Source: Marine Group II euryarchaeote MED-G36
GTDB lineage: Archaea; Thermoplasmatota; Poseidoniia; Poseidoniales; Thalassarchaeaceae
Assembly (NCBI GenBank): GCA_002457595.1
Contig: NTJR01000001.1
Span: forward strand, 1 to 53,657
Direction: 5' to 3'
Length of the DNA: 53,657 bases
Part shown: one piece after another, positions 6,241 to 53,151 of the stretch
Layout: every line of letters starts with the position of its first letter
How positions within the stretch are numbered: position 1 is the stretch's first letter
Made by a program: the position numbers and the translations under genes
The notes under the pieces: generated by a model
The model's database searches: none
What the model was told of the DNA's origin: nothing
The model's input: the letters and a program-made list of their open reading frames with translations, nothing else

Positions 6241-6257
6241 CACGACCTATGGTCGTG
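6241..6257 (+). promoter_or_regulatory. Perfect hairpin before the subtilisin gene
   Basis: CACGACC, loop TAT, GGTCGTG. This 7-bp perfect stem begins right after the TAA at 6238-6240 and ends 16 bases before the TTG start at 6274; AGAGGT lies between. There is no T-tract, so it does not look like an archaeal terminator. It is one of a series of similar elements in this window. Confidence 0.65.
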
Positions 6258-6273
6258 AATCAAGAGGTTACAA

Positions 6274-9200
6274 TTGACCCGAATACTGAAAGGTAGAGTA
6301 TTTCGGGGTCGTTCTATGTCTCAGCGAGCCTCGCTGTTAGTTCTAACAATCCTTCTTCTTGGAATGGCTCCAATTAGTGGAACAATGATTGATGAATCAT
6401 CGACATCAGAATTACCTCTAGATAATACAACTCAGAGAATTGAAATCTCAGCCAACCCAGATTCAATCAGAGATCTTGGTGAATCAAATGTTATCGAAGG
6501 ATTTGAGAGAACTCGTAGTAATACCGCTGAATCCTCTATCGGCGTATATACTGAGATTGGATTTATTCCTTCCGTTCATATTCCTAGTTCATTGACAGTA
6601 AATCGTGCGGATTTAGTGATTGTAATAGTAAATGGTGAAGTTGGAATTTGGGATGCTAGGATTTCAATAGAAGAATCAGCCAATGTCGAAATTAGAACTA
6701 CAATCCCTCCGTCAGGTTTCCTCGTTCAGGGTGATCAGAAAGAGATTTCTAAGTTAGCTGAAATCGATGTAATTGAAGCAGTTCATAATGTTCCCATAGG
6801 ACTTCTTGTTGATCCGATTTTGAGAGTCGTTGATGAAGGCAAAATCATGGTTGAGATTCTGGGTTGGAAGGATGATGAGTTGCAAAGGCATTCAGAACCA
6901 GGTCTAGGTATTGATGCTTCTTTGGATGAAGTCTCAAAAGAATGGATGACCGATTCCTGGAGTCCCGAAGAGGGTCGATTATGGGGCGAAATTAACCTTG
7001 CTGATTTAGGAAAAATTTCTCAACATCCTTCTGTTTCTTGGATTTCTCCTCTGCCTGTGCTTGAACTTCACAATGATAATGCAAGAAACTGGATGGGAAT
7101 AAATTCTGTTGATTCTTACTTTGTTACGGATTTAGATGGCTCTGGACAGACAATAGCAGTTGGTGATTCTGGAATAGATCATGATCATGGCGACTTTGGT
7201 AACAGAATAGTTGCTAGAACATCAGTCACTCCTGGTGATTCGAGTACGGCCGACCCTAGTGATGGACATGGTACCCATGTTGCCTGCACTGTTTTGGGTT
7301 CCGGAATGCGTAGCAGTGGCACATATGCTGGAGTTGCTCCGGCTGCTAGTCTATACTTTCAAGCGATGGAAGACGATGACACAAATTCATTGTATAGTTA
7401 TGGAATAAATAGCATGCTTAATTCTGCTTACAACGATGGCGCACGATTACACACAAATAGTTGGGGCTCTGCAAGTGGACATGGTTCCTACTCAACTCAG
7501 TCAGAAGATGCTGATGATCGTACATCTACTTGGGATCAGTACTGGTCTTACGACGGGATGACAGTCCTTTTTGCCGCCGGTAATGATCGATATACAGGTG
7601 TAACGCCTCCTGCAACAGCCAAGAATGTAATTACCATTGGAGGCCATGATAATCGAGGCAGTGGTTCTCCTGATAGTATGTATTATTCCAGCAGTAGAGG
7701 ACCTACTGATGATGGGCGTATCAAACCCGACCTAGTTGCTCCTGGAGATGGCGTTCGCTCCTGCCTCGCTCAAGAGGCTCAGGACACTGATTCAGGGTGG
7801 TCAAACGACTGGTACCTTGAGTACAGCGGCACTTCCATGGCGACTCCAGCCGCAGCAGGCGCTGCAACTTTAGTACGAGAATATCTGATGGAAGTTGCAA
7901 ATAGGCCTGCTCCTCAAGGTGCTCTAATCAAGGCTCTGCTTATTCTTGGAGCCGAGGATATGGGAACTCGAAACATTCCTAATGATGACGAAGGATGGGG
8001 TCGTGTAAATCTGATAAATTCATTAATTCCGGATAGTGACGAAGGGATTTTCGTAGATGATAGAAATAGAATCAAGAGCGGTCAAACACGTGAATATAAT
8101 TTCGATATTACTAGGTCAGGGGAACCGCTGAAAGTGGTTCTAGCGTGGTCGGATTTCCCCGGCTCGTCTCAATCTAACGCTCAACTTAGAAATGATTTGA
8201 ATTTAGAAGTCACTAATCCTAATGGAAATATGGTCTACAAAGGAAATGTTTTCACTTCAGGTCATTCAATTACCGGGGGTAATTGGGATGATGTAAACAA
8301 CGTCGAAGTGGTTTTGGTTGACTCAGCCTCGACCGGCACATGGACAGTCAGTGTCAAGGATGATTATCATGGAGGCGGCCGAACGTGGCAACCATACTCA
8401 ATAGCCGTTAGAGGGGTAAATGTCAATGATTTGTCGCCGGATCCAACTTTCTCATCAGAAGTTATCATTGATCCTATCGTTCCACAAGTTGGAGAAAATG
8501 TTGAGATTACCGTTACTGTTGAAAATTTAGGAGCGGGGTCAATCCCTGATCTTGATGTAATGGCTAGAGCTGATGGTTCACTAATCTCAAATCAGGTTAT
8601 TTCGTTAATTCCTGGCGAATCAAAGCAAGTTACATGGAATTGGACACCTACACAGGAGGGACAAATTCCACTAGAATTTAGAGTCGACCCAAATGACTTA
8701 GTCGAGGAGACATCTGAATCAAACAATCTTCTAACTCATATGTTACAAGTCAGTGCTCCCGGTGTTAGAGTCAGCTCAAGTGAGGCCTATATTTCTCTTA
8801 GCGATGCTACAGATTCAGTTACTTCATGGGATCTCCAACTAACTAATACAGCACTTTTCGAGACAAATGCTACTATAGAAGCCAGCAATGTAATACGAAT
8901 GAGTGATGGATTAGAATTTGATTGGTTTAAATCCTTCACGAATACAGAATTTAATCTCGCTGCAGCAGAAACTATAGACATTGGATTCACTTTAATTCAT
9001 CCCGCTCCTCCACAACCTGGAACATATCAAATTATGATTACTGGAACGGACATAGAAAACTCTGTTGAATCTATTTTGTCTATTTTCTTTGTTGTGCCAC
9101 TTCTTGCTGAAGCCGATGTCCAAATTAGTGCAGGACAAATTCTTGTCAGCCCATTAGAGAAAACGAATGTTCAATTTTTCGTCACAAATCTTGGTAATGG

Positions 9201-10809
9201 TCCCCAGACATATGATGTTGAATTGATTTCCCCTGCCGGTTGGAATCTTGGTTTAGATTACCTTGGAACTTTTGCTGGCTCTTCTCATGGATCAACAGGA
9301 ACCCTAAGTGTGGGGGAGCAAAGAGCAATCGATGTTACAATAAATCCCCCTGGGGCATTGATTCCCGAGGGTACAATCCTTGATGCAGCAATAAATATTC
9401 GATCAAGAGTCAGTAATGATGTTTGGTCAGTTGATATTCCAATGAGGGTAATTGCAATAGATCAGTTATCGACCACCCCTATCAGTGATGGAATAGAGCA
9501 TCAAGTACCTCCGGATGGAACAATTGAGTTGAAAATAGATTTCCTTAATTTAGGAAACCGCGAATTACAACTTACACCAATTCAACTGGGAATTCCTGGC
9601 GGGTGGACTGTTTTGGAACCGCTTCAGCCTCTAACTCTACCAACGTCTTCTACAACTCAGTGGAGTGTTACTCTACAGGGTAATGGTCTAGCAGAAAGTG
9701 GATTATTTCAACTTCGCTTCACAACAGCTGATGGTGAATTCTATATTGATTGGAATAGGAGTATAGATGTACTTTCAGCTGCTATTCCGATAATTAACTT
9801 CTATCAAGTATCTTTAGCTACTGGTGAAACATCTGATTCTGTACTAGGATTAGGTCAACATCCAGTGGGAGAGCCATTTGATATTTCTTGGATCGTTGAG
9901 AACCAAGGTGCATCAAATTGGAGAGATATAGACACTGAAATTATTCTACCAAATGATGATTGGATTGGAGATTGCGGTTCTCCACCTAGCACAGTTTATT
10001 CTGACTCTAATTATATAATTTGGTGCACGATGACAATCCCTCTATCTGCTGAAGCTGAAACCGGTTATCCTGTGACTTTCCGTATGAGTGGTGAGGGAAT
10101 TTCTATTGAGAATGTCATCAGCCTCCACCCCGCATCAAAATCAGCAGTTTCTTGGGATGTGAATTCTAATGTAAGTGCTCATGAAGGTTGGTCCGAACAA
10201 CTAACAGTTACAGTGCAAAACATAGGTAATGCACCAATAAGTCACAGGCTTGAAGTAACAGCTCCTGCCGGTTGGGATTTATTAATCAATGATGCAGTTC
10301 TGATTCTCCTCCAACCTGATGAATCGACTAATATTAATATTCAATTCAAACCGAATTCAGGTGATGATGGAGTCCTCTCATTTTCGTTGAAAAATGCAGA
10401 CGACATAGATGGTTCAGTTTTCAATGTTGATGTTGATGTTAAGGCGGCAAGAGTAGGTGAAGATTCATCATCTTCAATTTTTATTCCTTTCATCATTATC
10501 CTAGTTATAGTTGCTCTTGGCGGAACAGCATTCTTTGTATCCAGAAAAAGAGGAATTGATATCAGTCAGATTTTTGCTAGTGAAAACCTTTCAAAGATTA
10601 GTGATTCTCTAAATTTAAGTGATTCAACCAGTGGTTCTGGAATAGAATGTTGGGTTTGTAGTAAGGATATTATTGTCGGCCAAGCCTTGGCTTGTGGTCA
10701 GTGTGGAGCTCGCTATCATAGAGCATCCCAAGTGAGTGGTTGTGACATAATTTCTCTGGGCCGTTGTTTGCATTGTAATGCCAAATCCGCTGAGTTAGTA
10801 GAGGCCTAA
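6274..10809 (+). CDS. Surface subtilisin (S8) with CARDB-like repeats, membrane anchor and cytoplasmic RING-like finger
   Basis: The protein has 1511 residues. The S8 catalytic triad is visible: Asp298 in GDSGIDHDHGD, His332 in DGHGTHVA and Ser521 in SGTSMATPAAAG, with the oxyanion Asn in AAGND. Residues 1-280 are the signal peptide and propeptide region. After the protease comes a beta-sandwich of the type associated with S8 enzymes, then a CARDB-like domain (VENLGAGSIPDLDV) and several NEW3-like repeats. A membrane span at about 1404-1427 (FIPFIIILVIVALGGTAFF) ends in RKR. The cytoplasmic tail carries CWVC, CGQC, YH, GC and CLHC (from residue 1459), a RING-like zinc pattern. It probably degrades external protein. 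The start is either TTG 6274, after AGAGGT, or ATG 6316. Confidence 0.88.
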   Translation: MTRILKGRVFRGRSMSQRASLLVLTILLLGMAPISGTMIDESSTSELPLDNTTQRIEISANPDSIRDLGESNVIEGFERTRSNTAESSIGVYTEIGFIPSVHIPSSLTVNRADLVIVIVNGEVGIWDARISIEESANVEIRTTIPPSGFLVQGDQKEISKLAEIDVIEAVHNVPIGLLVDPILRVVDEGKIMVEILGWKDDELQRHSEPGLGIDASLDEVSKEWMTDSWSPEEGRLWGEINLADLGKISQHPSVSWISPLPVLELHNDNARNWMGINSVDSYFVTDLDGSGQTIAVGDSGIDHDHGDFGNRIVARTSVTPGDSSTADPSDGHGTHVACTVLGSGMRSSGTYAGVAPAASLYFQAMEDDDTNSLYSYGINSMLNSAYNDGARLHTNSWGSASGHGSYSTQSEDADDRTSTWDQYWSYDGMTVLFAAGNDRYTGVTPPATAKNVITIGGHDNRGSGSPDSMYYSSSRGPTDDGRIKPDLVAPGDGVRSCLAQEAQDTDSGWSNDWYLEYSGTSMATPAAAGAATLVREYLMEVANRPAPQGALIKALLILGAEDMGTRNIPNDDEGWGRVNLINSLIPDSDEGIFVDDRNRIKSGQTREYNFDITRSGEPLKVVLAWSDFPGSSQSNAQLRNDLNLEVTNPNGNMVYKGNVFTSGHSITGGNWDDVNNVEVVLVDSASTGTWTVSVKDDYHGGGRTWQPYSIAVRGVNVNDLSPDPTFSSEVIIDPIVPQVGENVEITVTVENLGAGSIPDLDVMARADGSLISNQVISLIPGESKQVTWNWTPTQEGQIPLEFRVDPNDLVEETSESNNLLTHMLQVSAPGVRVSSSEAYISLSDATDSVTSWDLQLTNTALFETNATIEASNVIRMSDGLEFDWFKSFTNTEFNLAAAETIDIGFTLIHPAPPQPGTYQIMITGTDIENSVESILSIFFVVPLLAEADVQISAGQILVSPLEKTNVQFFVTNLGNGPQTYDVELISPAGWNLGLDYLGTFAGSSHGSTGTLSVGEQRAIDVTINPPGALIPEGTILDAAINIRSRVSNDVWSVDIPMRVIAIDQLSTTPISDGIEHQVPPDGTIELKIDFLNLGNRELQLTPIQLGIPGGWTVLEPLQPLTLPTSSTTQWSVTLQGNGLAESGLFQLRFTTADGEFYIDWNRSIDVLSAAIPIINFYQVSLATGETSDSVLGLGQHPVGEPFDISWIVENQGASNWRDIDTEIILPNDDWIGDCGSPPSTVYSDSNYIIWCTMTIPLSAEAETGYPVTFRMSGEGISIENVISLHPASKSAVSWDVNSNVSAHEGWSEQLTVTVQNIGNAPISHRLEVTAPAGWDLLINDAVLILLQPDESTNINIQFKPNSGDDGVLSFSLKNADDIDGSVFNVDVDVKAARVGEDSSSSIFIPFIIILVIVALGGTAFFVSRKRGIDISQIFASENLSKISDSLNLSDSTSGSGIECWVCSKDIIVGQALACGQCGARYHRASQVSGCDIISLGRCLHCNAKSAELVEA

Positions 10810-10813
10810 ATTA

Positions 10814-10832
10814 CGCGACCCTATGGGTCGCG
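10814..10832 (+). promoter_or_regulatory. Perfect hairpin between surface-protein genes
   Basis: CGCGACCC, loop TAT, GGGTCGCG: an 8-bp perfect stem starting 5 bases after the previous stop. A second weaker hairpin (GCCC...GGGC) follows at 10842-10855, before the ATG at 10874. No T-tract is present. It shares its shape, but not its sequence, with the elements at 6241, 13740 and 29196. Confidence 0.65.
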
Positions 10833-10873
10833 GTGCCCGAAGCCCTTAGAGGGGCGAGTTTGTCGGCCCTACG

Positions 10874-13561
10874 ATGAATCACGTATCATCGGCTCGGATT
10901 CTATCCGTTCTTCTGGTATTTTCATTACTTTCTCCTATTTCTTTAGCGGAAATTGATCCAAGACTTACCGCTTCTCCAATGGCCCAGGAAGCAGATGTGG
11001 ACGATGCTGCTGAATATGACATCACAGTTCACAATGACGGCGACGATGATATGACTGTCACCCTTACAACTCAGCAAGATGCTAGTAATTGTAATGGTTT
11101 TACTTCTAATATAGAGCAAGTTTCTGGGAGTATAGATGCGGGCTCTTCTGAAACAGTTACGCTCACAGTTACTGTGACTGATCAGGCTGATGGAGATTGT
11201 GAGACCACTGTCAATGCTCAGGCTACACCTTCAGGGGCACCAGGGACTCCAAAGAATGCGGATATCACAGTCACAACCACATCAGGTGATGGAGGTGGCC
11301 TTTATGCAGTGAAACTCACAACTGATGAATTGACAATTGAATATGATGGTCAGAATCAGATAGAGTGGGATGTTGAAGTAGAAAATACTGGCGAGCAAGA
11401 TAATGCACAGATCCAACTTGAAATGACTTCCGACAGCGATTGTGAGTCTGATGAATTAACTGCCGAAGTTCAACCACCTACAGTTACTCTAAATTCGGGT
11501 GACAAAGAAACAGTTGAGGTCACTGTAGATGTGCCTGATGGCAGTTCTACAGAAGCAGGTCAGCACTGTTTCATCATTCTAGCCACAGTAACAAATGACC
11601 CTAATGCTGCTGATCGAGCGTCAGATAATCTTACTCTTCAACTTGATATTCCTGAAGTCAAAGAGTGTGATGGACAACTCTCAACCTCTTCACATAATCT
11701 TGACCCATTTGAATCTGCAACCAATAGTTTCACTGTAGAGAATGTGGGTAATACAGAATGGACAGTGACTATGCAGGCTACATCTGCAGATATTGACATT
11801 AGCGACTGGGTGGATTTTGATAGTCCGAAATCAAAATTACTCTCTGAAACAGGTTCTGAATCTATTCATACTTTTTCTTTCACAACCACACCTGATGATT
11901 CAGCAGAGGCCGATTCTCAGATTGAAATTATGATTCAGGGAATGTCAAACCAGGGAGTTGGTTGTGAGAGAATGCTCGTAATTAGGATAGGGCAGGTCCA
12001 CGAAGCAGAATTATCACTCAGCACAACGGTCTTGTCAAATGTTCAACCTGGTGACTCCGGTACAGTTAGTATCACCATAGAAAATATTGGAAATGGTGCC
12101 GACACATTCTCTCTAACGACTATAGAGATACCTGATGGCTGGCAATCCCAATTTTCATTTTCTTCTGTTACAGTTCAAAGTAAACACAGCTCAGACAATG
12201 AAGAATCAGTAAGTGCGACAATTAATGTTCCACCCGATGCTCTAGCAGGGGACAACCTAGTTACTTTTGGAGTTACAATTAGTGGCTCAACTACGATTCT
12301 TTCAAGTAAAACTCTGACTGTTTCAGTAGCTCCTAATCATGAAATGACTGCAGTCATGACGTCTACTGAACAGAGTGGTTCGACAGGACAGATTGTTCAA
12401 TTTCCTCTTGAAATTACTAATACAGGAAATGTGCAGGATACCTTCATACTGAAAGTCTGTGATCCTAATGATCTGACTGGCTGTAATCCTCCTGAATGGT
12501 CTTCTTCATATTCCGATTCTAGTGGGAATTCTATTTCCCAGATTGTCATTAATTCAGGTGAATCAAAGTCAATATTTCTTGATGTTACAGTCGGTGATGG
12601 GAGAAATGGATATCCGGTCGAAATCTTGTCTCGAGTTAGTATCTATGGAACTGAAGAAAAAATTGAACAGACTGTCAAGGTAATTATTTCTAACTACGTA
12701 TATGGAATGGCAATCTCTCTAGAAGAGCCGGGCTCAAGTGCTAGTGAATTAGATGTCACTCTTCCTCCAGGAGGAGTCACTCAAATTAATTTCTGGGTTG
12801 AGAATGTTGGAAACCATTCCGTAGATGGTGCAGTAATTTCGGTCACAGGTTTGGAATCATCAGTTCTTAGAAAGGTGCTAGTAGATGGAATCGCTATTTC
12901 TGAAAACATTCAAATTCAATTGGGTGAAAGAAAACTAATTACCGTTGAATTGGAGGTTATTGAGGGTCTTAATAGTGGAACTACGGGGATCATTCAGGTA
13001 AGTGCTGCATCTGAGAAAAATGCAGCACAACCGACTTTTGTTAGTCTAATATTTGAGTCAAAGACAATACATAATCTAGTTCTTACCTTAGAAGGTGAAG
13101 ATTCGAAAAAGACCGATGAATCATCTAGCATTGAGTTCATGATTCATGTGACAAATAATGGTAATGTCCTTGAAGAAGTCCAAGTTTTGAGTAGTGACCC
13201 ACTTAGAGGATGGGGTGTGAATATGGTCCCCGAAGAATTTGATTTATCTCCAGGCGAATCAAAAAATGTCACCATTAGAGTGATTCCTCCTGCGGATATG
13301 GTTCAGGATGACACCTACAAATTCACCATAACAGTTCAGCCAAGAGGAATGCCAGTTGCTGGCCAACCTGTTGATTTAGAAGTCACGGCTGAAGTCAGTA
13401 CAGGCCTCGATCTAATCAGTGAAGAAAATAGGAAAATTCTAACATATGGGTTAACAATTATTGGTGGCCTTCTAGTTATGTTTTTGTTTGTTAATGCCCG
13501 TTCCGAAAATAAACGAATAATTAGTGTTCTAGATTCCGAATCAGGAAAAAATGATGATTAG
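10874..13561 (+). CDS. Membrane-anchored surface protein of repeated CARDB/NEW3-like domains
   Basis: The protein has 895 residues. It has a signal peptide (SARILSVLLVFSLLSPISLAE) and then at least five immunoglobulin-like repeats. They show the recurring phrase of the COG1470/NEW3 type: VENTGEQDNA, VENVGNTEWTV, IENIGNGADTF, ITNTGNVQDTF, VENVGNHSVDG and VTNNGNVLEEV, each about 100-130 residues apart. Near the C-terminus there is one span (ILTYGLTIIGGLLVMFLFV) and a short basic and acidic tail. There are no catalytic motifs. Such proteins usually build cell-surface layers or act as adhesion and spacer modules. The same repeats occur in the protease upstream, so the two probably work at the same surface. 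The ATG at 10874 has no clear ribosome binding site. Confidence 0.8.
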   Translation: MNHVSSARILSVLLVFSLLSPISLAEIDPRLTASPMAQEADVDDAAEYDITVHNDGDDDMTVTLTTQQDASNCNGFTSNIEQVSGSIDAGSSETVTLTVTVTDQADGDCETTVNAQATPSGAPGTPKNADITVTTTSGDGGGLYAVKLTTDELTIEYDGQNQIEWDVEVENTGEQDNAQIQLEMTSDSDCESDELTAEVQPPTVTLNSGDKETVEVTVDVPDGSSTEAGQHCFIILATVTNDPNAADRASDNLTLQLDIPEVKECDGQLSTSSHNLDPFESATNSFTVENVGNTEWTVTMQATSADIDISDWVDFDSPKSKLLSETGSESIHTFSFTTTPDDSAEADSQIEIMIQGMSNQGVGCERMLVIRIGQVHEAELSLSTTVLSNVQPGDSGTVSITIENIGNGADTFSLTTIEIPDGWQSQFSFSSVTVQSKHSSDNEESVSATINVPPDALAGDNLVTFGVTISGSTTILSSKTLTVSVAPNHEMTAVMTSTEQSGSTGQIVQFPLEITNTGNVQDTFILKVCDPNDLTGCNPPEWSSSYSDSSGNSISQIVINSGESKSIFLDVTVGDGRNGYPVEILSRVSIYGTEEKIEQTVKVIISNYVYGMAISLEEPGSSASELDVTLPPGGVTQINFWVENVGNHSVDGAVISVTGLESSVLRKVLVDGIAISENIQIQLGERKLITVELEVIEGLNSGTTGIIQVSAASEKNAAQPTFVSLIFESKTIHNLVLTLEGEDSKKTDESSSIEFMIHVTNNGNVLEEVQVLSSDPLRGWGVNMVPEEFDLSPGESKNVTIRVIPPADMVQDDTYKFTITVQPRGMPVAGQPVDLEVTAEVSTGLDLISEENRKILTYGLTIIGGLLVMFLFVNARSENKRIISVLDSESGKNDD

Positions 13562-13702
13562 TAGATGAATTATTCTAACAAAATAGTCGGGTACTACAGT
13601 GTTGAACTAGGTCATGTATTAGGTGTATACTTATTTCACCAGCGCTACTATCTACGTTTTATCTTGAGCACTTAGCCAAAGGTTCAGTCAATACTCACAT
13701 GG

Positions 13703-13712
13703 TTATGCTTAT
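13703..13712 (+). promoter_or_regulatory. Candidate TATA box of the nuo operon
   Basis: TTATGCTTAT. With the usual archaeal spacing the transcript would start near 13734, giving a leader of about 35 nt that contains the whole hairpin at 13740-13756. This is inferred from position only. Confidence 0.3.
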
Positions 13713-13739
13713 GACCGTATTTCAGGTGGGGCAGTCTGC

Positions 13740-13756
13740 CGGTCCCTTAGGGACCG
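13740..13756 (+). promoter_or_regulatory. Perfect hairpin before nuoA
   Basis: CGGTCCC, loop TTA, GGGACCG: a 7-bp perfect stem. It ends 4 bases before GTG 13761 and 13 bases before ATG 13770; the likely ribosome binding site (AGGTG, 13758-13762) lies just after it. Confidence 0.65.
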
Positions 13757-13769
13757 TCAGGTGTGGGCA

Positions 13770-14216: not shown

Positions 14217-14222
14217 GGTGAT

Positions 14223-14822: not shown

Positions 14823-14832
14823 GGGGATACAG

Positions 14833-15489: not shown

Positions 15490-15498
15490 GGGTTCAAT

Positions 15499-16635: not shown

Positions 16636-16644
16636 GGTGAAAGC

Positions 16645-29195: not shown

Positions 29196-29212
29196 CGACA
29201 TCTATGATGTCG
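29196..29212 (+). promoter_or_regulatory. Perfect hairpin before the carboxylase operon
   Basis: CGACATC, loop TAT, GATGTCG: a 7-bp perfect stem, 17 bases after the DUF63 stop and 47 bases before the ATG at 29260. No T-tract follows. Confidence 0.6.
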
Positions 29213-29259
29213 AATCCATTTAATTGAAGGTATGACGGCAATCTGAGGGGTTGAGAGCC

Positions 29260-30870
29260 ATGGACAGATTGCCGACCCGAGTCGACCGTGGAAGTGCTGA
29301 TTGGCATGGTCGACGAGAATATAATCTCGGTTTAGCAGACCAACTCAAGGAGCATCTTGCAGCAGTCAAGAATGGTGGAGGTGGCAAATATGTCGAACGA
29401 CATAGAAAGCGCGGAAAGATGCTACCTCGAGAACGAATTGCAGAAATTTGCGACCCCGGCAGTCCATTTCTAGAGTTCAGTTCTCTTGCTGCAAATGGTC
29501 TCTATGATGGACGCGCGCACTCAGCTGGAATAGTCACTGGGATTGGGGTTGTACATGGTAAGGAGTGTCTTTTTGTTGCCAACGATGCAACCGTCAAGGG
29601 CGGCTCATACTACCCAATGACAGTGAAAAAACACATTAGGGCTCAAGACATTTCTGATGCTAACAATTTGCCTTGCATCTATCTGGTAGATAGTGGAGGA
29701 GCATTCCTTCCAATGCAGGATGAAGTATTCCCTGACATTGGTCACTTTGGCCGTATTTTTCGTAATCAGGCCGTTCTATCGGGTAAGGGTATTCCTCAGG
29801 TTGCAGCAGTACTTGGCAGTTGCACTGCTGGTGGGGCTTACGTACCTGCAATGTCTGATGAGTCAATCATTGTCAAGGGTAACGGAACCATTTTCCTCGC
29901 AGGCCCTCCTTTAGTCAAGGCTGCAACTGGTGAAGAAGTAAGTGCAGAGGATCTTGGTGGTGCTGATGTTCACACTCGTCAATCAGGTGTTGCTGATCAT
30001 TTCGCTGAGAATGAAGAAGAAGCCTTGCGAATGGTTCGAAATGTAGTTGAAAACTTGAACATTGAGCCGAAGCAGCGTCTTGATGTTAAGCCAGTAGAGG
30101 AGCCTGCCTATGATACTGAAGATTTGATGGGGATTCTTCCTTCAGACAATCGAACTCCTTACGACGTCAAGGAGGTAATAGCTCGCCTTGTTGATGGTTC
30201 AAGATTCCATGAGTTCAAACCACGCTATGGTACAACTCTAGTATGTGGTTTTGCTAGAATTCATGGATATCCAGTTGGTATTGTAGCCAACAATGGAATA
30301 TTATTTTCTGAATCATCTCTCAAAGGTGCTCATTTCATTGAATTGTGTGGCCAGCGCGGGATTCCTCTGATTTTCTTGCAGAACATTACCGGCTTCATGG
30401 TTGGCCGTGATGCTGAATCTGGTGGAATAGCCAAAGATGGAGCAAAATTAGTCACAGCCGTATCTTGTGTTCCTGTGCCCAAATTCACTGTAATAATTGG
30501 TGGGTCACATGGGGCTGGCAATTACGGAATGTGTGGGCGTGCCTATGACCCTCGTTTTCTTTTCATGTGGCCGAATGCAAGGATATCTGTAATGGGTGGT
30601 CCACAAGCGGCAGACGTATTGGCTAGTGTCAAGCAGGATCAGAGAGCTCGAGAAGGACTCCTTCCAATGTCTGGAAGTGAATTGGAAGATTTCCGTCGTC
30701 CTATTCTCGACAAGTATGAAACAGAAGGTTCACCTTACTATTCTACTGCTCGATTATGGGATGATGGCGTTATCGATCCTAGGGACACTAGAGATGTGTT
30801 AGGGCTAGCCATCTCCGCTTCACTTAACGCCCCATTCCCTGATAGTGACTACGGCGTATTCAGGATGTGA
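29260..30870 (+). CDS. mccB: Acyl-CoA carboxylase carboxyltransferase, methylcrotonyl-CoA type
   Basis: The protein has 536 residues and a full carboxyltransferase. It transfers CO2 from carboxybiotin to an acyl-CoA. Motifs diagnostic of the methylcrotonyl-CoA branch are present: [33 protein letters not shown], and [20 protein letters not shown]. The C-terminal half has [21 protein letters not shown] and the second oxyanion region [18 protein letters not shown]. The reaction belongs to leucine breakdown. Start ATG 29260 follows GAGGGGT at 29246-29252. The downstream genes supply a hydratase, biotin carboxylase and biotin carrier. Propionyl-CoA activity cannot be excluded from sequence alone. 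Confidence 0.9.
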
Positions 30871-36337: not shown

Positions 36338-36358
36338 GACCAGCCGCAAGGGCTGGTC
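36338..36358 (-). promoter_or_regulatory. Perfect hairpin before serS
   Basis: Arms GACCAGCC (36338-36345) and GGCTGGTC (36351-36358) with a 5-base loop: an 8-bp perfect stem ending 3 bases before the ATG at 36334. It lies between the stop of the presenilin-like gene and serS. Confidence 0.6.
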
Positions 36359-44100: not shown

Positions 44101-44102
44101 AT

Positions 44103-44894: not shown

Positions 44895-44898
44895 ATCC

Positions 44899-46410: not shown

Positions 46411-46490
46411 ATTAGTTGGTCAAGGCCACCCACTCTTGAATGTGCTCGAGACGTGATGAACTACTTTACCTTCTACTACTTCCGATAGAT

Positions 46491-46667
46491 GTGAGTGACA
46501 GCGAGGGGCTAGAGAATCGTAAACATATGAGGGAAATTGACCGACTTCGACGTGAGAGTGAAACAATATCTCGATTGCTGATGCAAGCCAGTCTAGTCAA
46601 TGTTAGAACTCAAATAGAGCAGGTTAAATCTCACCTCTCTGAAACCGAATCATTTCTAGAGAGTTAG
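46491..46667 (+). CDS. Small coiled-coil protein, hypothetical
   Basis: About 58 residues from GTG 46491; ATG 46440 would give 75. The product is charged and helical, with heptad-like spacing (REIDRLRRESETISRLLMQAS and QIEQVKSHLSETESFL), so a short coiled coil is likely. I do not recognise a family. It lies between the divergent site-2 protease gene and the convergent hjc gene, ending 14 bases before the hjc stop. Coding status is probable but not certain. Confidence 0.5.
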   Translation: MSDSEGLENRKHMREIDRLRRESETISRLLMQASLVNVRTQIEQVKSHLSETESFLES

Positions 46668-46680
46668 TTGAAAATTTCAG

Positions 46681-47229
46681 TTAACTATTATATTGATTTT
46701 CGATTAATCGTGCTCCATCTGAGCGGCTGATAAGTGCTAAGAATCTGTGTAGAGGCATTCCTTCATGCCAGTTTAGATATGGTGAACCATTACGAGTCAG
46801 AGGTACTTCTGGTATCGCTCTTGCCAGTGTACGCAACTTTCCAGTCAATCCTTCTACTGGCACTTTCATAATAGTCCAACTATCTCCTCTGACTCCCTTG
46901 AGTCTGAATGCATAAAGAGGTAGTAGACCACATTTCTCTCCAGTAGTCTTGAGTGCATCGTATTGTAACTTAGTTCGTCCTGACAAGTATATCTTATCGG
47001 TCTTCGATGATTTTACTTCAATAGGAAAGCACATATCCCCTCTAAGTGCAAGAAGATCCCCAGTACCTTCACTTCCACTTCCAGGGGCCCTGACCACTAG
47101 AAAAGGGCGCTGACAAACTTGTAGTGCACGCGCTCTTTCAACTTCATTACAGGAACGAGTGATTGCTTGAACACCTTTTTTTTCCCCAGCCAGAACAGAG
47201 CGTAATTCACGCTCATATACGCTGCTCAT
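46681..47229 (-). CDS. hjc: Holliday junction resolvase Hjc
   Basis: The protein has 182 residues, longer than the usual 120-150. The resolvase core is present: YERELRSVL near the N-terminus, the variable RAPGSGSEGTGDLLAL with its metal-binding Asp, and FPIEVKSSKTDKIYLS with the ExK pair. Archaeal Hjc cuts four-way DNA junctions in recombination. About 20 extra residues lie between the first helix and the RAPGSG strand, and the C-terminus has an extra 45 residues. The ATG at 47229 lies in the loop of a 5-bp stem (47218-47236). It is divergent from an RNase-H-fold gene and both promoters lie in the 174-base gap. Confidence 0.85.
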   Translation of the reverse strand: MSSVYERELRSVLAGEKKGVQAITRSCNEVERARALQVCQRPFLVVRAPGSGSEGTGDLLALRGDMCFPIEVKSSKTDKIYLSGRTKLQYDALKTTGEKCGLLPLYAFRLKGVRGDSWTIMKVPVEGLTGKLRTLARAIPEVPLTRNGSPYLNWHEGMPLHRFLALISRSDGARLIENQYNS

Positions 47230-47284
47230 ATGCGTAGCCTATTCTCAAGGTTCTTGACGACATCGCTTGTCTATTACTCAAAAT

Positions 47285-47297
47285 GATATATTTTACT
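47285..47297 (-). promoter_or_regulatory. Candidate TATA box of hjc
   Basis: AT-rich stretch reading TAAAATATATCAT on the minus strand. It predicts a transcript start near 47265 and a leader of about 36 nt. Inferred from spacing. Confidence 0.35.
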
Positions 47298-47334
47298 TAA
47301 TATCCCCTCATCCGAATTGAGAAAATGCAGTTTC

Positions 47335-47343
47335 TCTATAATC
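47335..47343 (+). promoter_or_regulatory. Candidate TATA box of the RNase-H-fold gene
   Basis: TCTATAATC. It predicts a start near 47365, so the leader of about 39 nt would contain the left arm of the hairpin at 47392. Confidence 0.35.
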
Positions 47344-47391
47344 AGTAGAATTTCTAGTGATTAGTTAGTAATCATTGAATGCGAGGTCTAA

Positions 47392-47412
47392 CTCTGACAA
47401 ACCGTGTCAGAG
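47392..47412 (+). promoter_or_regulatory. Perfect hairpin at the start codon of the RNase-H-fold gene
   Basis: Arms CTCTGACA (47392-47399) and TGTCAGAG (47405-47412), loop AACCG. The 8-bp stem has no mismatch. The G of the GTG start (47404) is the last loop base, so the start codon is at the base of the loop. Confidence 0.6.
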
Positions 47413-48156
47413 GTGGCTGTACGGACAGATGACTTTCGTTTGGCATACCGATTGCTAAATAGATTGAGAGTTTCAGGTCTACAATATTCTCAGATTGATA
47501 CTTCCCATCCAGTTCCAATCGGGGTCAATTATTGGATAGGTTCTCACGCTGAAGTCCTACTTACCGATGATGGTCGCGGGGTAGGATGTGATATTGAAGA
47601 AATAGATTCTGTAATTGGTTCAATAATCAATAGGATGTATGTTGGAGACCAAGTTCAGCGAATTTGTTTTGGAATTGACCCTGGCCCTCGTCCAGGTTTA
47701 GCATGGTTAGCCGATGGACGACCTGCAGGTTCTATGCAATTGGAATCAGTTGACGCAGTAGTTGACAGAATAACAGAAATATTGCTAGATATTTCTCCTG
47801 CCGAGTCTGTAGTTCGAATTGGTGATGGTGTGAGAACCATATCATCTCGAATTGCAAACGTTTGTCTTGCTCGTGGTTTATCTGTACAATTGGTTGATGA
47901 GCATTCAACTTCGAAAGGATCGCGTCATGATCATATCTCTGCTGCCAGAACAATTAGTTCATTGGAAGGAATTCCAATTACTCAGCGATTACAAGTAACT
48001 CCATCAAAAGGAGAAGTTCGTGAAATTCAGCGTAGGAGTCGCAGAATTTCTGAAGGAAGGCTAACCATTCCAGCAAATTTGGCAAGATCGGTTGCTGTTG
48101 GGCGGCTCACACTAACCGAGGCTGTAAATTTGCATATTGGTAACTTAGACCGCTGA
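47404..48156 (+). CDS. Predicted RNase-H-fold protein (RuvC/YqgF-like)
   Basis: The protein has 250 residues. The central part starts with FGIDPGPRPGLAWLADG, which matches the first strand of RuvC-like and YqgF-like folds with its catalytic Asp. SVVRIGDG follows, then LVDEHSTSKGS, like the DERLTT motif of YqgF, and RHDHISAARTI, which could give the last acidic residue. The function is not known; a nuclease role on branched DNA or RNA is an inference supported by the divergent hjc gene. N-terminal (1-75) and C-terminal (190-250, basic) parts are unassigned. It starts at GTG 47404 within a hairpin and has no classical ribosome binding site. Confidence 0.7.
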   Translation: MSEVAVRTDDFRLAYRLLNRLRVSGLQYSQIDTSHPVPIGVNYWIGSHAEVLLTDDGRGVGCDIEEIDSVIGSIINRMYVGDQVQRICFGIDPGPRPGLAWLADGRPAGSMQLESVDAVVDRITEILLDISPAESVVRIGDGVRTISSRIANVCLARGLSVQLVDEHSTSKGSRHDHISAARTISSLEGIPITQRLQVTPSKGEVREIQRRSRRISEGRLTIPANLARSVAVGRLTLTEAVNLHIGNLDR

Positions 48157-48164
48157 TTTCTAAC

Positions 48165-48806
48165 TCAGGGGTACTTGCCTTTTCTGAAGGCCCTAGTTCT
48201 GTCTATGCCAGGAAACCTATCTTCAGATTCTCGATAAACAGTTTTCATATTATTGAGGAATTGATTATCATTTGTAACGATGAGAACCATATCAGTCCCA
48301 GGATCCTCTCCTTCATCCATCCAAGCTAGAACAATTTCCATTGTCATCCTTGCGCCTTCTCGGTGTGGATATGCGAAAATATCCATACAGATAGGTGGCA
48401 TAACCAAAGTCTCACGCTTTTTTACAGCCTCTATTTGATTGAACATAGCAGCATAGGATTGTTTCAATAGGTCGCGACGAAAGTTATCTTGATTAGGTCG
48501 TCGACAATCAGGTCCTACAACATGAACTAGATTTTCAAAAGGCAAATTGAATCCCGGTGTAGTTACGGCTTCACCTACTCCACACGGCTGTAAGTTCTCC
48601 TTTCTTCTCTCAACTGCAATTTGGTGGGTGAATTCACGAAGTTCAGGACCTGCTTTTTGATGGATTTTCTCATCTAGGCCTTCTCGCCCTGCTAGGCGAT
48701 TGTTAGCTGTCGTAACCAAGAGGTCACCGTCTACTCGCAGAATATTGCCAAATAGTACCCTGACCTGTCCATATTTGCACTCTCGCACGATGACTGTCTC
48801 GGCCAT
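48165..48806 (-). CDS. Macro-domain protein
   Basis: The protein has 213 residues. The macro fold is seen in LFGNILRVDGDLLVTTANNR, then GREGLDEKIHQKAGPEL, GVGEAVTTPGFNL and LVHVVGPDCRRP. These surround the ADP-ribose pocket, including the Asn pair in TTANN. Such domains bind or remove ADP-ribose or related nucleotides. ATG 48806 is preferred over codons further upstream; it lies in a 22-base loop closed by a 9-bp stem (48780-48788 with 48811-48819, one G-T pair). The gene is convergent with the RNase-H-fold gene, with 8 bases between them. Confidence 0.85.
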   Translation of the reverse strand: MAETVIVRECKYGQVRVLFGNILRVDGDLLVTTANNRLAGREGLDEKIHQKAGPELREFTHQIAVERRKENLQPCGVGEAVTTPGFNLPFENLVHVVGPDCRRPNQDNFRRDLLKQSYAAMFNQIEAVKKRETLVMPPICMDIFAYPHREGARMTMEIVLAWMDEGEDPGTDMVLIVTNDNQFLNNMKTVYRESEDRFPGIDRTRAFRKGKYP

Positions 48807-48909
48807 ATAGGTACGAGAGCAGGCCACCCGATATTACCTCATCGTAGGTATAATCTCTAACTTCTATGCCGGCGAAGGCTTAATTCGGTCAACGCCTCTA
48901 GAAGTATTG

Positions 48910-49143
48910 ATGTCAGTAGGTTATGTTCTCATTAATGTCGAGCCTGGCTCTGAATTCTCTGTATTCAACGAGGCTTCAAAGTTGTCATTCATTGTGGATG
49001 CAAATCTTCTCTTCGGAGACCACGATTTGATACTAAAAATTGAAGCCTCAAATATGGGGGAGATTGCTCGTTTAGTGGTTGACTCTATTCGCTCAATTGA
49101 TGGAGTTCTCAACACAAAAACCCTTGCTTGTGCAGAATTATGA
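48910..49143 (+). CDS. Stand-alone RAM (Lrp/AsnC ligand-binding) domain protein
   Basis: The protein has 77 residues. It matches the effector-binding half of Lrp/AsnC regulators without the DNA-binding helix-turn-helix: VGYVLINVEPGSEFSVFNEA, then FIVDANLLFGDHDLILKIEA and IRSIDGVLNTKTLACAEL. Such stand-alone domains bind amino acids and oligomerise, sometimes with full-length regulators. The start is ATG 48910, with TTG 48907 directly before it. A run of six T (49158-49163) follows the stop. Confidence 0.85.
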   Translation: MSVGYVLINVEPGSEFSVFNEASKLSFIVDANLLFGDHDLILKIEASNMGEIARLVVDSIRSIDGVLNTKTLACAEL

Positions 49144-49157
49144 AGTGATTATTGTAA

Positions 49158-49185
49158 TTTTTTGGGGTTACGGAAATCCCCCAAA
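49158..49185 (+). terminator. T-run and hairpin after the RAM gene
   Basis: Six T residues at 49158-49163, then TTTGGGG (49161-49167) and CCCCAAA (49179-49185) form a 7-bp perfect stem with an 11-base loop. It may end the RAM transcript or belong to the MC1 leader. Confidence 0.45.
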
Positions 49186-49248
49186 GGTCCCCTCAGCGGC
49201 GCAGTGAAGCGTTTATCAGCCTCAAACTTCATAATCTCTCTGAGTGGC

Positions 49249-49265
49249 CCACCCTGTGGAGGTGG
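49249..49265 (+). promoter_or_regulatory. Hairpin masking the MC1 ribosome binding site
   Basis: CCACC, loop CTGTGGA, GGTGG. The ribosome binding site GGAGGTGG lies largely in the loop and right arm, 8 bases before ATG 49274, so folding would hide it. Confidence 0.45.
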
Positions 49266-49273
49266 ATAATTCA

Positions 49274-49537
49274 ATGTCTGGCAAAAAATACTTCGTTTTG
49301 ATGGAGGGTGACAATGACACTGCTCAGGTTTTCGTGAGTAAGCAACCCCGCGGTGCTGCTCTGAAAGCAGCAACTCGTGGTCATACCGACATATGTCTGC
49401 GCGAGCGCGGCACGAACAAGGTACATTGCTTCACAGGCTCAACCGCAATGGTACCAAAGCCTGCGAATGGACCGGCTTGGCTCCCAGCCAAGATCAAGAA
49501 GGCCAACGTGAAGAAGACCGGAATCAAGCGCCTCTGA
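49274..49537 (+). CDS. MC1-like chromatin protein
   Basis: The protein has 87 residues and is similar along its whole length to methanogen chromosomal protein MC1: KKYFVLMEGDNDTAQVFVS, KQPRGAALKAATRG, CLRERGTNKVHCFTG and PAWLPAKIKKANVKK. MC1 binds DNA as a monomer, bends it sharply and is abundant in Methanosarcina and haloarchaea. Conserved positions include the Arg and Lys of RERGTNKVH and the Trp of PAWLP. The protein is basic. Start ATG 49274 follows GGAGGTGG at 49258-49265. A T-rich terminator follows at 49555. Confidence 0.9.
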   Translation: MSGKKYFVLMEGDNDTAQVFVSKQPRGAALKAATRGHTDICLRERGTNKVHCFTGSTAMVPKPANGPAWLPAKIKKANVKKTGIKRL

Positions 49538-49554
49538 TTTTCAGGGTGTACCGG

Positions 49555-49568
49555 TTTTTTCTTTCTTT
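49555..49568 (+). terminator. T-rich terminator after MC1
   Basis: TTTTTTCTTTCTTT, 17 bases after the MC1 stop, in the gap between the convergent MC1 and sdhB genes. Confidence 0.6.
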
Positions 49569-49588
49569 AGCACTGATCCACGTAACCT

Positions 49589-49609
49589 CGCCTGGGAAAA
49601 TCCTGGGCG
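49589..49609. other. Inverted repeat between MC1 and sdhB
   Basis: Arms CGCCTGGG (49589-49596) and TCCTGGGCG side (49602-49609) pair over 8 positions with two G-T pairs around the loop AAAAT. It lies in the convergent gap and could fold in either transcript; no function is assigned. Confidence 0.4.
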
Positions 49610-49649
49610 GGGGTAATATCTCATTCTTTGTCTTCCAATGACAATTTGG

Positions 49650-50426
49650 TCAGCGGAGTCCAATTTTCTTAGCAATCATTGCTAGAGGGTCATAATATTC
49701 TGTTACAACTCTCTCTTTTAATGGAATAATTGCGTTATCTGTAATGCTTATTCCAGCCGGACAAACTTCTGTGCAACATCGGGTAATATTGCAATATCCA
49801 ATTCCAAAATCTTCCTTAATTTCTGGAATTCGACTCTTTGTATCTAGAGGGTGCATTTCTAATCCTGCTAATCTAACGAAAAATCTTGGTCCGGCAAATT
49901 CGTCGAACATCTGATGCTCTCTCAGTACGTGGCAGGTATTGACACATAGCATACACTCAATACATCCACGGAATTCCTGAATGCGATCGGCTTCTTCTTG
50001 TTTGAAATTCCAATCTAGTTCTTTAGGTCCATTTACTGGGACCATTTTCTTGTTCATTTCATAGGCCCAAGAAGTATCAGTTACAAGATCCTTGGTAAGT
50101 GGGAATGCTTGCATAGGTTTCACCAAAACGGGTTGACCTTCTGGAGTCTCATCCATGATTTCCTCCATTCGTGTCATACACATGAGGCGTGCTTTTCCAT
50201 TAACTTCAGCTGAACAAGAACCACATTTCCCCGCTTTGCAGTTCCATCGACATGCAAGATCGGGCGCGTGCTCAGATTGAATACGATGAATCACGTCTAG
50301 AACTACCATCCCCTCATCCATTTCTACAGTGTAATCGACCATCTGGCCAATAGGATCTCCGAAGGAATCAGATTTCCATACGACTGAATTCCCTCGAAAA
50401 ACTCTGAAGGTCACTTCTTTAGCCAT
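49650..50426 (-). CDS. sdhB: Succinate dehydrogenase iron-sulfur subunit
   Basis: The protein has 258 residues. The N-terminal plant-ferredoxin domain has the [2Fe-2S] ligands CRWNCKAGKCGSCSAE and a later Cys (ARLMC). The C-terminal domain has CIECMLCVNTC and CNITRCCTEVCPAGI, the ligands of the [4Fe-4S] and [3Fe-4S] clusters. It carries electrons from the flavin subunit to quinone. It starts at ATG 50426 after GAGGACT, 2 bases after the sdhA stop, and is the last gene of the operon. Confidence 0.94.
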   Translation of the reverse strand: MAKEVTFRVFRGNSVVWKSDSFGDPIGQMVDYTVEMDEGMVVLDVIHRIQSEHAPDLACRWNCKAGKCGSCSAEVNGKARLMCMTRMEEIMDETPEGQPVLVKPMQAFPLTKDLVTDTSWAYEMNKKMVPVNGPKELDWNFKQEEADRIQEFRGCIECMLCVNTCHVLREHQMFDEFAGPRFFVRLAGLEMHPLDTKSRIPEIKEDFGIGYCNITRCCTEVCPAGISITDNAIIPLKERVVTEYYDPLAMIAKKIGLR

Positions 50427-50428
50427 AT

Positions 50429-52261
50429 TCAGTCCTCCTCGTGCAAATCATCTGCATCAAGTAATTCTCTTAGTTCTGAATCGATAGGAGGATATTTTCG
50501 GTGTTCGATAGCCATTGTACCATCTAATTGAATCGAAATCACACTGTTGATTTTTCCCCAATGCTTGTAATCAGGTGTTGGAAAATCATCTCTAGTATGG
50601 CCACCCCGAGATTCTTCTCTTTCTAAGGCAGCTAGGGCACACATTCGAGAAACGTCAATCATTGCACCAATTTCCAAGGCTTGGTGCCATCCAGGATTGT
50701 AAATTCGAGAACCACCAGGGCTAGTAATGGAAGCTCGGGACTCAAGTTTATCCAAATCAACTAAAGCTTCTTCTAGCAATTTTCCAGTTCGAATTATTCC
50801 AACTTTCTCTTGCATCATTTCCCGCAGGTCTTCGACGACTTTTGCTGGATTTTCTCCATTCTCACGATTCAAAGGAGCCAATGTTTCGTCAATCACGTCT
50901 GCAATTTCTGTGGCATCAATTTCCTCAAAGTCATTAATCTGACTGGCTCTTAAAGCAGCCTGTTCACCTGCAATTTTTCCGAAAACAATCAAGTCAGACA
51001 GTGAATTACCACCTAAGCGATTAGCCCCATGAAGACCAGTAGCCGCCTCTCCTGCTGCGAATAATCCAGATATTGTTGATTCTTGAGTTTCAGGGTGGAC
51101 CTTCACTCCCCCCATTACGTAGTGTGCTGTAGGTCCAACTTCCATCCGTTGCTTGGTAATATCAACTGCTGCAAGCTCTTTGAATTGGTGATACATGCCT
51201 GGTAATTTCTTCTTTACTTCCTCTGGATCTCTCCAAGAGATGTCAAGATAAGCACCACCATGTTCACTTGCGCGACCTGCCTCTCTCTCTGAATTTATTG
51301 CTTTAGCCACTACGTCTCGTGTGAGTAATTCAGGAGGTCTACGCTTCGTAGCCAGTTGTCCTGAAATTACTTCTTCAACCCACCCTTGTGCTTCTTCCTC
51401 TGTATCTGCAAACTCATCTTTGTACATTTCAGGGACATAATTGAACATAAATCGCTCATCTTTGGCGTTAGTTAGCATTCCTCCTTCACCCCTAACACCC
51501 TCTGTAACAAGTATTCCCTTGACAGATGGGGGCCAAATCATCCCTGTTGGGTGGAATTGAACAAATTCCATGTCTCCTATTTCGGCTCCTGCCCAATATG
51601 CTAGTGCGTGCCCTTCTCCAGTATATTCCCACGAGCCTGAACACACAGCCCAACACCGAGTTATTCCTCCTGTTGCTAATACGATTGTCTTGGCCTTGAA
51701 TACATGCAGAGTACCATTATTTCTGTCATAGGCAAAGCATCCTGTGACTTTTCCATTAGATGTGAAAAGTCGACGAACGGTGAATTCCATGAAAACATCC
51801 ATTCCCATATGAATTCCTTTTTCTTGCAAAGTTCGAATTAATTCTAGACCAGTAGCGTCACCAATATGAGCCAATCTTGGATATGTGTGACCACCAAAGT
51901 TACGTTGGTTAGTTAAACCATCAGGAGTCCTGTCAAAAACAGCCCCCCAAGTCTCCAATTCTCGAATGCGGTCTGGGGATTGTTGAGCATGAATTTTGGC
52001 CATTCGCCAATCATTCAGATATTTACCCCCCTTCATCGTATCACGGAAATGAGTTTGCCAATTATCACGTGGATCCTTATTTCCTAGAGCAGCAGCAGCT
52101 CCACCTTCTGCCATTACAGTATGTGCCTTACCTAGCATTGATTTGCATATCATTGCAACACTCGCGCCGTTCTGGCTAGCTTCTATGGCTGCTCTCAGCC
52201 CAGCTCCGCCAGCTCCTATTATGACAACGTCATGTTCGTGAACAGTATAATCCTCAGTCAT
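50429..52261 (-). CDS. sdhA: Succinate dehydrogenase flavoprotein subunit
   Basis: The protein has 610 residues. The FAD-binding motif is VVIIGAGGAGLRAAIEASQ. The His that carries covalent FAD lies in KAHTVMAEGGAAAALGN. Active-site segments follow: FVQFHPTGM, TEGVRGEGGMLTNAKDERFM (with the catalytic Arg), PTAHYVMGGVKV and LGGNSLSDLIVFG. It oxidises succinate to fumarate in the citric acid cycle. ATG 52261 is chosen because GGGGTGG lies about 8 bases upstream, inside the end of sdhC; GTG 52273 is possible. The order is sdhC-sdhA-sdhB. Confidence 0.95.
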   Translation of the reverse strand: MTEDYTVHEHDVVIIGAGGAGLRAAIEASQNGASVAMICKSMLGKAHTVMAEGGAAAALGNKDPRDNWQTHFRDTMKGGKYLNDWRMAKIHAQQSPDRIRELETWGAVFDRTPDGLTNQRNFGGHTYPRLAHIGDATGLELIRTLQEKGIHMGMDVFMEFTVRRLFTSNGKVTGCFAYDRNNGTLHVFKAKTIVLATGGITRCWAVCSGSWEYTGEGHALAYWAGAEIGDMEFVQFHPTGMIWPPSVKGILVTEGVRGEGGMLTNAKDERFMFNYVPEMYKDEFADTEEEAQGWVEEVISGQLATKRRPPELLTRDVVAKAINSEREAGRASEHGGAYLDISWRDPEEVKKKLPGMYHQFKELAAVDITKQRMEVGPTAHYVMGGVKVHPETQESTISGLFAAGEAATGLHGANRLGGNSLSDLIVFGKIAGEQAALRASQINDFEEIDATEIADVIDETLAPLNRENGENPAKVVEDLREMMQEKVGIIRTGKLLEEALVDLDKLESRASITSPGGSRIYNPGWHQALEIGAMIDVSRMCALAALEREESRGGHTRDDFPTPDYKHWGKINSVISIQLDGTMAIEHRKYPPIDSELRELLDADDLHEED

Positions 52262-52262
52262 T

Positions 52263-53126
52263 TCAGAAACCACCCCAAATCACAATATCAGACCATCCGA
52301 AGAATGAATCAGTGCATGCGTATACATAGAAGTCAGCAAACATAACCCAGAATAGAGAATAGAGAGCCCATTCCTTGTGCTGCTCATTGAATTTGGTTGA
52401 CAATTTCCATAGTCTATACTTTAACCGATTTATAGCAGTGCTAGTCCAATCATTAGAGTCTCCTCCAACAATGTGTCTGAAAGCATGGCAGCCAAAGGTG
52501 TAGCCAGTTAGCATAATCACATTCACTAATAGAATTAGACTACCTACAGTAACACCGTAGGCATGAATTCCCCCTTCGTGGAAATTAACAGACATCCACA
52601 CATCGAAGGATAGGATTGGTAGATATGCCAACATTACATACATGAAATATCGATGTAGATTTTGAACTAGGAGCAGTCCAGTTTCTCCTGAGTATTCATT
52701 CCACGGCTTGGAAACTGCACAACCAGTTGGTTGTTGCATAAATGATCGATAGTATGCCTTTCGATAATAGTAACAAGTAGCACGAAAACCCGCTGGAAAA
52801 ATCAGAATGAACATTGCAGGACTCATCCACCACAGGAACTCAGGTATAGGTCCTCCAAAAGTCCCACTACCTGGAAGAATCAGAGGACTGAAGAGGGGGC
52901 TCAGAACATGGCTGCCATTGGACTCTATCGCCATGGTAGATTGACCAGCACTTCTCCCAAAGTCTTCGAAAATCCAGAAGTCTGCTTCCATGAATCCACG
53001 CCATGTTGCATACAAAATCATGAATCCAAGATAGGCAGCCATAGCGGTCGGACCTTTCCACCATTGATCGACTCTGTCAGTGGCCCCGAAGCCTTTCTTC
53101 AAGGGGAGCCTCATCGTCCTGCCCAT
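52263..53126 (-). CDS. sdhC: Succinate dehydrogenase membrane anchor (large single-subunit type)
   Basis: About 287 residues with five or six spans, much longer than the roughly 125 of classical SdhC. The segments GFRATCYYYRKAYYRSFM, LLVQNLHRYFMYVMLAYLPIL and TFGCHAFRHIVGGDSND resemble the large anchor subunits seen in some actinobacterial succinate dehydrogenases. His residues in QNLHRYF, FHEGG and CHAFRHIVGG are candidates for haem binding. No separate sdhD gene is present. ATG 53126 is preferred because a ribosome binding site (AGGTG) lies in the right arm of a hairpin just before it (53133-53151). ATG 53114 and ATG 53168 are alternatives. Confidence 0.83.
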   Translation of the reverse strand: MGRTMRLPLKKGFGATDRVDQWWKGPTAMAAYLGFMILYATWRGFMEADFWIFEDFGRSAGQSTMAIESNGSHVLSPLFSPLILPGSGTFGGPIPEFLWWMSPAMFILIFPAGFRATCYYYRKAYYRSFMQQPTGCAVSKPWNEYSGETGLLLVQNLHRYFMYVMLAYLPILSFDVWMSVNFHEGGIHAYGVTVGSLILLVNVIMLTGYTFGCHAFRHIVGGDSNDWTSTAINRLKYRLWKLSTKFNEQHKEWALYSLFWVMFADFYVYACTDSFFGWSDIVIWGGF

Positions 53127-53132
53127 TCTATT

Positions 53133-53151
53133 CGCACCTACATGTGATGCG
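53133..53151 (-). promoter_or_regulatory. Hairpin holding the sdhC ribosome binding site
   Basis: On the minus strand CGCATC, loop ACATGTA, GGTGCG: a 6-bp stem with one G-T pair. AGGTG is partly in the stem, and ATG 53126 is 6 bases further on. Confidence 0.45.

Follow-up and report, generated by a model that had tools for sequence, protein, structure and literature searches.

Results

Four perfect triloop dyads in a Marine Group II contig

The DNA analysed here, called the window throughout, is a stretch of 53,657 nucleotides (GC 43.5%) that represents one contig of an 888-kb MAG, 57% complete, of Ca. Poseidoniales (Marine Group II). Of this source genome (G000), 771 kb were analysed; it is assigned to this group by its nearest named genomes and by its proteins, which include aIF-1A, a Rio kinase, an archaeal presenilin-type protease, FolC and NADH dehydrogenase subunits. 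The window contains four perfect inverted repeats with a 3-nt spacer, none of which is assigned to a strand: CACGACC-TAT-GGTCGTG (7 bp; 6241–6257) upstream of an S8-protease gene (ATG 6316); CGCGACCC-TAT-GGGTCGCG (8 bp; 10814–10832) upstream of a gene for a secreted protein with an Ig-like domain (ATG 10874); CGGTCCC-TTA-GGGACCG (7 bp; 13740–13756), of a start-proximal subclass, at the gene for NADH dehydrogenase chain 3 (nuoA-like; ATG 13770); and CGACATC-TAT-GATGTCG (7 bp; 29196–29212) upstream of a carboxyltransferase gene (ATG 29260). The stems end 58, 41, 13 and 47 nt, respectively, before these conserved start codons, three of the four start 0–17 nt past the preceding stop codon, and the single-stranded DNA of the sites is predicted to fold stably on both strands (−5.2 to −9.5 kcal/mol).

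We compared these sites with a second species of the same genus (G016; 1.14 Mb analysed, GC 55.7%). At the orthologous promoter of the 6241–6257 dyad both arms and spacer are identical; for the 10814–10832 dyad the arms are identical and the spacer is TAA; and ahead of the orthologous nuoA-like gene G016 has CGGTCCC with the spacer TAC on the coding strand. The arms of the carboxyltransferase dyad at 29196–29212 are identical in 11/11 sequences of the genus, where the spacer reads TAT, TAC or GAA. Eleven base pairs downstream of this dyad, TTGAA (29224–29228, + strand) matches the TATA-like element of the genus, TTSAA, and the sequence flanking it is partly kept in relatives.

The original prediction comprised six strong hairpins and nine weaker ones. 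All six of the former are present as perfect stems, and the four with a triloop are genuine and not due to chance; the other two, each with an 8-bp stem and a 5-nt loop, at 36338–36358 (strand not assigned; near the seryl-tRNA synthetase start) and 47392–47412 (likewise without strand), were rejected as members of the class, as the comparison with G016 supports them in part at most: G016 keeps only the inner arms of the first and does not keep the second. The nine weaker sites are neither palindromes of the triloop kind nor kept as such in G016, and were also rejected.

The window holds two further features of note. A second inverted repeat, GGCAATCTG / CAGATTGCC (29237–29274; 9 bp), encloses the carboxyltransferase start codon (ATG 29260) and decays in relatives, and a small ORF at 48910–49143 has an Lrp/AsnC ligand-binding domain. 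A search of the window with Rfam covariance models matched only a tRNA, and known RNA families were set aside as an identity for the dyads.

The dyads are enriched in noncoding DNA and usually lie upstream of a TATA-like element

Our broad scans covered the two genomes, G000 and G016, in which genes were called by a simple ORF caller. G000 was split for counting into 85.6 kb of noncoding and 686 kb of coding DNA, which contain 47 and 58 perfect stems that are 7 bp or longer and have a 3-nt loop (0.549/kb vs. 0.085/kb); G016 has a similar noncoding excess (0.489/kb vs. 0.143/kb). Inside the intergenic segments of G000, 43 such stems were counted, compared to 5.55 in dinucleotide shuffles of these segments, which define the chance level, and the enrichment suspected from the window is thereby borne out genome-wide. 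Enrichment is much weaker for loops of 4, 5 and 6 nt (12, 14 and 6 observed vs. 4.75, 3.45 and 4.6).

The hairpins had been described as lying at start codons, which is wrong for most sites: in both genomes many stems are found between divergent genes or, where the genes run in tandem, about 35–75 nt before the ATG. These distances rest on gene starts from the simple caller, which puts some start codons in the wrong place and so blurs the anchoring of stems in large gaps. The TATA-like element TTSAA, a motif obtained from 763 upstream regions and common to those of both genomes, is located about 30 nt before the start. At the best-resolved promoters, the TATA-like sequence comes shortly after the stem, which sometimes sits between divergent promoters: TTGTATCAC-GTA-GTGATACAA is followed by CTTTATGAACC at the EF-2 promoter, CGCCCC-GTA-GGGGCG by TTCAAATA at the S13 promoter, and the carboxyltransferase dyad of the window, CGACATC-TAT-GATGTCG, by TTAATTGAA. 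Such a position would place the stems outside the mRNA that they precede. A minority of sites, at gyrB, alanine dehydrogenase and nuoA (13740), are near the start codon and could additionally act in RNA. Regions between convergent genes are depleted of stems (4 vs. 9.5 expected over both genomes, p 0.04; zero in one of the two genomes only), and the longest T run within 25 nt after a stem is 3 nt. By eye, many promoters also have a G-rich stretch like GGTCGGCGGG about 12–20 nt past the TATA-like box (e.g. L115:10060–10140 and L120:5560–5610), which is perhaps an initiator-type element.

The dyads share a closing pair and a loop rule, and have private arms

Stems of at least 7 bp in which a C-G pair closes the loop (C-inner stems) number 78 over both genomes and form the largest class in noncoding DNA, at 27/47 in one genome and 51/72 in the other; many of the noncoding T-inner stems resemble tRNA arms. 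The loops of C-inner stems mostly follow the pattern NNA on one of the strands (GTA 18, ATA 15, AAA 12, TAA 10), and this strand is the coding strand in 23 cases, the template strand in 15 and undecided in 15, so there is no strand preference. Within the arms, T is nearly absent from position −5 (1/78 C-inner stems), and in both genomes it is significantly less frequent at −5 and −2 than in coding palindromes. Apart from C at −1 and the scarcity of T at these two positions, the sites have no arm consensus in common, and a search among the promoters for a half-site shared by a homodimer operator or regulon found none beyond the closing C.

The arms themselves are private to each promoter. When about thirty 6-bp half-sites were tested per genome, nearly all had a single intergenic match; the arm pairs tested, among them those of EF-2, S13 and further housekeeping promoters, are thus essentially unique within a genome. 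Each of nine genus members has one copy of the gyrB arms, which were found in none of the genomes searched from the rest of the order.

The arms persist across the genus and the spacers vary

Orthologous promoters from as many as 17 congeneric species were compared. In 30 of 441 orthologous gene pairs, both members have the same 6-bp halves around a 3-nt spacer, a figure that is 0.0 for mismatched pairs; among the 24 distinct conserved C-N3-G dyads listed, the spacer is identical at only 41/72 positions. The arms are identical in 16/16 sequences for EF-2 (9 bp), 17/17 for an S1-domain gene and 12/12 for gyrB (11 bp), with varying spacers, and alignments of the carboxyltransferase and EF-2/S13 promoters show sequence upstream of the stem that has diverged while the arms hold. 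Even the distance between unchanged arms shifts at two promoters: it is 3, 5 or 6 nt at gyrB, a variation that often arises from the gain of one C-G pair by the stem, while the secE arms are 4 nt apart in 13 sequences but 3 nt apart in G016.

Outside the genus, the dyad is absent or different at the EF-2 and S13 promoters, and at the carboxyltransferase promoter several other genera have instead a C-N3-G stem immediately ahead of the start codon. The type of element therefore spans the order, while the promoters that bear dyads, and the arms, differ between genera.

The genome encodes the gyrase genes gyrB and gyrA, and the region upstream of gyrB in relatives has two such dyads. GyrB of G000 (L099:11503–13461) is itself unusual: it shares 89% identity with the GyrB of G027, a genome of another family, but only about 70% with that of most other members of the genus, a sign of what may be horizontal replacement, and the gene still bears the genus-specific leader palindrome CTGAGGGTTCC-N3-GGAACCCTCAG.

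Exact self-complementarity is the conserved property

We collected all 6-mer pairs 3 nt apart that are identical in orthologous intergenic regions of the two species and have differing spacers. Perfect complements are far in excess (14 vs. 0.1 expected), whereas pairs with one mismatch (2 vs. 1.6) or two mismatches (13 vs. 11.7) are not; the corresponding counts for 7-mers are 11, 1 and 4 vs. 0.0, 0.3 and 2.6. As only perfect complements exceed chance, exact self-complementarity is the conserved property. Compensatory changes were also found in orthologous promoters: TGGGCCC/GGGCCCA is replaced by TGAGCCC/GGGCTCA at ftsZ, CGCCCC by CACCCC in G000 at S13, and ACCATC by ACCGTC at an ABC-transporter promoter, each as a compensated double change. 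Across 97 orthologous sequences of seven promoters, there is one mismatch and there are zero G-T pairs. Within single genomes, tandem regions have 54 perfect stems vs. 2.2 expected and a modest excess of internal one-mismatch stems (47 vs. 28), among which the coding strand has no preference for G-T (10) over A-C (8). The hairpins of the S13 mRNA leader served as a positive control in the same genomes, and show G-U pairs and drifting, covarying arms.

The S13 leader deserves separate mention (L253:1436–1505; contig C18 of G000, ~13187–13256; orthologues L254–L270 and L323–L328). It consists of two RNA hairpins, the second of which usually has a GNRA-like loop, followed by GAACACGGGGGAACCG and the ATG; 5/10 pairs have changed on both sides across the family, and the leader has no match in Rfam. 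From its sequence, it looks like a ribosomal-protein autoregulatory leader.

Discussion

Our computations establish the existence and enrichment of a class of promoter dyads with near-unique arms, a free spacer, pairing conserved only when perfect, strand neutrality, and rules for closing pair and loop. The original prediction had argued that a constant shape with varying arms pointed to structure rather than to one operator, and it was right in this respect: the pairing itself appears to be under selection. The RNA role that it proposed is unsupported. We favour instead a promoter dyad that acts at the DNA level and is selected for self-pairing, probably a supercoil-extruded cruciform that is read by a protein, and we give this explanation about an even chance of being correct.

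The proposed mechanism would operate as follows: perfect inverted repeats of 6–12 bp with a spacer of 3 nt (rarely 4), usually just upstream of the TATA-like box, would be maintained by selection for the capacity of each strand to pair with itself; gyrase-driven negative supercoiling would extrude the repeat as a small cruciform, with two triloop hairpins closed by C-G, one strand presenting an NNA loop and its complement a TNN loop; and a generalist protein, or the pre-initiation complex, would read the cruciform shape and set promoter output. A small cruciform explains why the arms are perfectly complementary, why the loop is short and closed by C-G, and why neither strand is favoured. Extrusion, a binding protein and the direction of its effect are inferred. 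Several observations count against it. The near letter-for-letter conservation of the arms exceeds what pairing alone needs, and some base contacts must therefore matter; the persistence of the arms could reflect both a costly mismatched intermediate and direct base contacts at −1, −2 and −5. The modest excess of one-mismatch stems in single genomes is also against a cruciform, and 7–9 bp is short for cruciform extrusion unless the process is assisted. As other families lack the dyad at the same promoters, it is not essential.

Alternatively, each dyad might be a palindromic operator, i.e. a duplex site for a homodimeric factor that has a half-site of its own and a spacing set at 3 bp. The letter-for-letter retention of arms beside a drifting spacer, the mostly fixed 3-bp spacing, the promoter location, and a depletion of T at −5 and −2 that resembles protein contact all fit such a site, but since hardly any tested arm pair recurs within a genome, dozens of dedicated factors would be required. 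A scan of 19 flanking genes gave no match to a DNA-binding regulator family, and among 150 small proteins the regulator families have at most two members each; Lrp/AsnC has 3 domains. Operators would moreover tolerate mismatches, which conserved dyads do not show in excess (2 vs. 1.6), and predict a fixed inter-arm distance, at odds with the shifts at gyrB and secE. We therefore consider this reading possible but doubtful. A single operator or regulon was rejected because the arms are essentially unique per genome, and an Lrp/AsnC expansion because there are only 3 such domains.

It is unlikely that the dyads work as RNA hairpins, whether as mRNA 5′ leader elements or as 3′ end elements that include 3′ stabilisers of the upstream gene. 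The proximity of many stems to a preceding stop codon, the stems between promoter and start at gyrB, nuoA and alanine dehydrogenase, and the variable inter-arm distance at gyrB are consistent with RNA; the siting of stems ahead of TATA-like elements or in the gap between divergent promoters, the mixed loop orientation (23 vs. 15), and the lack of a G-U signature like that of the S13 RNA leader are not. Nor do RNA 3′ ends fit the lack of T runs longer than 3 nt after the stem and the depletion between convergent genes (4 vs. 9.5), and intrinsic terminators were rejected on the same two grounds. REP-type repeats were rejected because the sequences are near-unique. Template switching at quasi-palindromes, which would leave functionless perfect hairpins as a mutational product, accounts for perfect arms, short loops and sequences that differ from site to site; it is very improbable, as arms that stay unchanged across the genus beside diverged flanks need purifying selection, and neither the promoter location nor the closing-pair and loop rules would be expected.

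Returning to the extruded cruciform, its wider implication, which we put forward tentatively and consider less likely than not, is that extruded DNA hairpins may serve as a general promoter element of a cellular genome: dozens of promoters, many of them housekeeping, would carry private self-complementary sequences whose shape is sensitive to supercoiling and is recognized by one shared reader. The output of core genes, gyrase included, would then be tied directly to DNA supercoiling, and the long-standing question of whether small cruciforms serve a function in cells would become directly testable. A promoter element that conserves pairing and not a consensus would be missed by motif finders. 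Surface ocean water is rich in Marine Group II archaea, and in open-access text we found no literature on such elements, or on transcription regulation, in this group.

Among known systems, the nearest mechanism is that of the early promoters of the bacteriophage N4 virion RNA polymerase, which are gyrase-extruded hairpins with a 5–7 bp stem, a 3-nt loop and C-G closing, in which some stem bases are fixed, the rest are free if paired, and negative supercoiling is needed (PMC4496689). The dyads described here are likewise promoter-linked perfect stems with a 3-nt loop closed by C-G. With respect to the stem bases that are free if paired in N4, conservation here is restricted to perfect pairing and includes compensated changes, yet most arms are static within the genus. 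The N4 promoters share sequence contacts and lie near the start site of a phage polymerase, whereas the dyads have arms private to each promoter, lie upstream of a TATA-like box and belong to a cellular host. As position and shared contacts differ, we would regard N4 as the closest precedent and do not claim membership.

In E. coli and other prokaryotes, inverted repeats that could form cruciforms are enriched both in promoter regions and upstream of start codons, and have arms more conserved than spacers (PMC6060812, PMC13155455). Our dyads resemble them in their promoter enrichment and in arms that are held more than spacers; unlike those repeats, which are of mixed classes and include many terminators, they form one tight class of perfect stems with a 3-nt loop, C-G closing and NNA/TNN loops, each unique to its promoter and conserved between species. 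With REP elements and intrinsic terminators they share the form of intergenic stem-loops, often behind stop codons, but REP elements are repeated copies whereas the dyads are near-unique, and terminators have a T tract that the dyads lack. Archaeal palindromic operators, such as the feast/famine Lrp-type TGAAA-N3-TTTCA, are also short promoter dyads with an A/T-rich 3-bp spacer; such operators have a regulon-wide consensus and tolerate mismatches, whereas the dyads of these genomes, which encode few Lrp/AsnC proteins, have neither a shared consensus nor mismatch tolerance.
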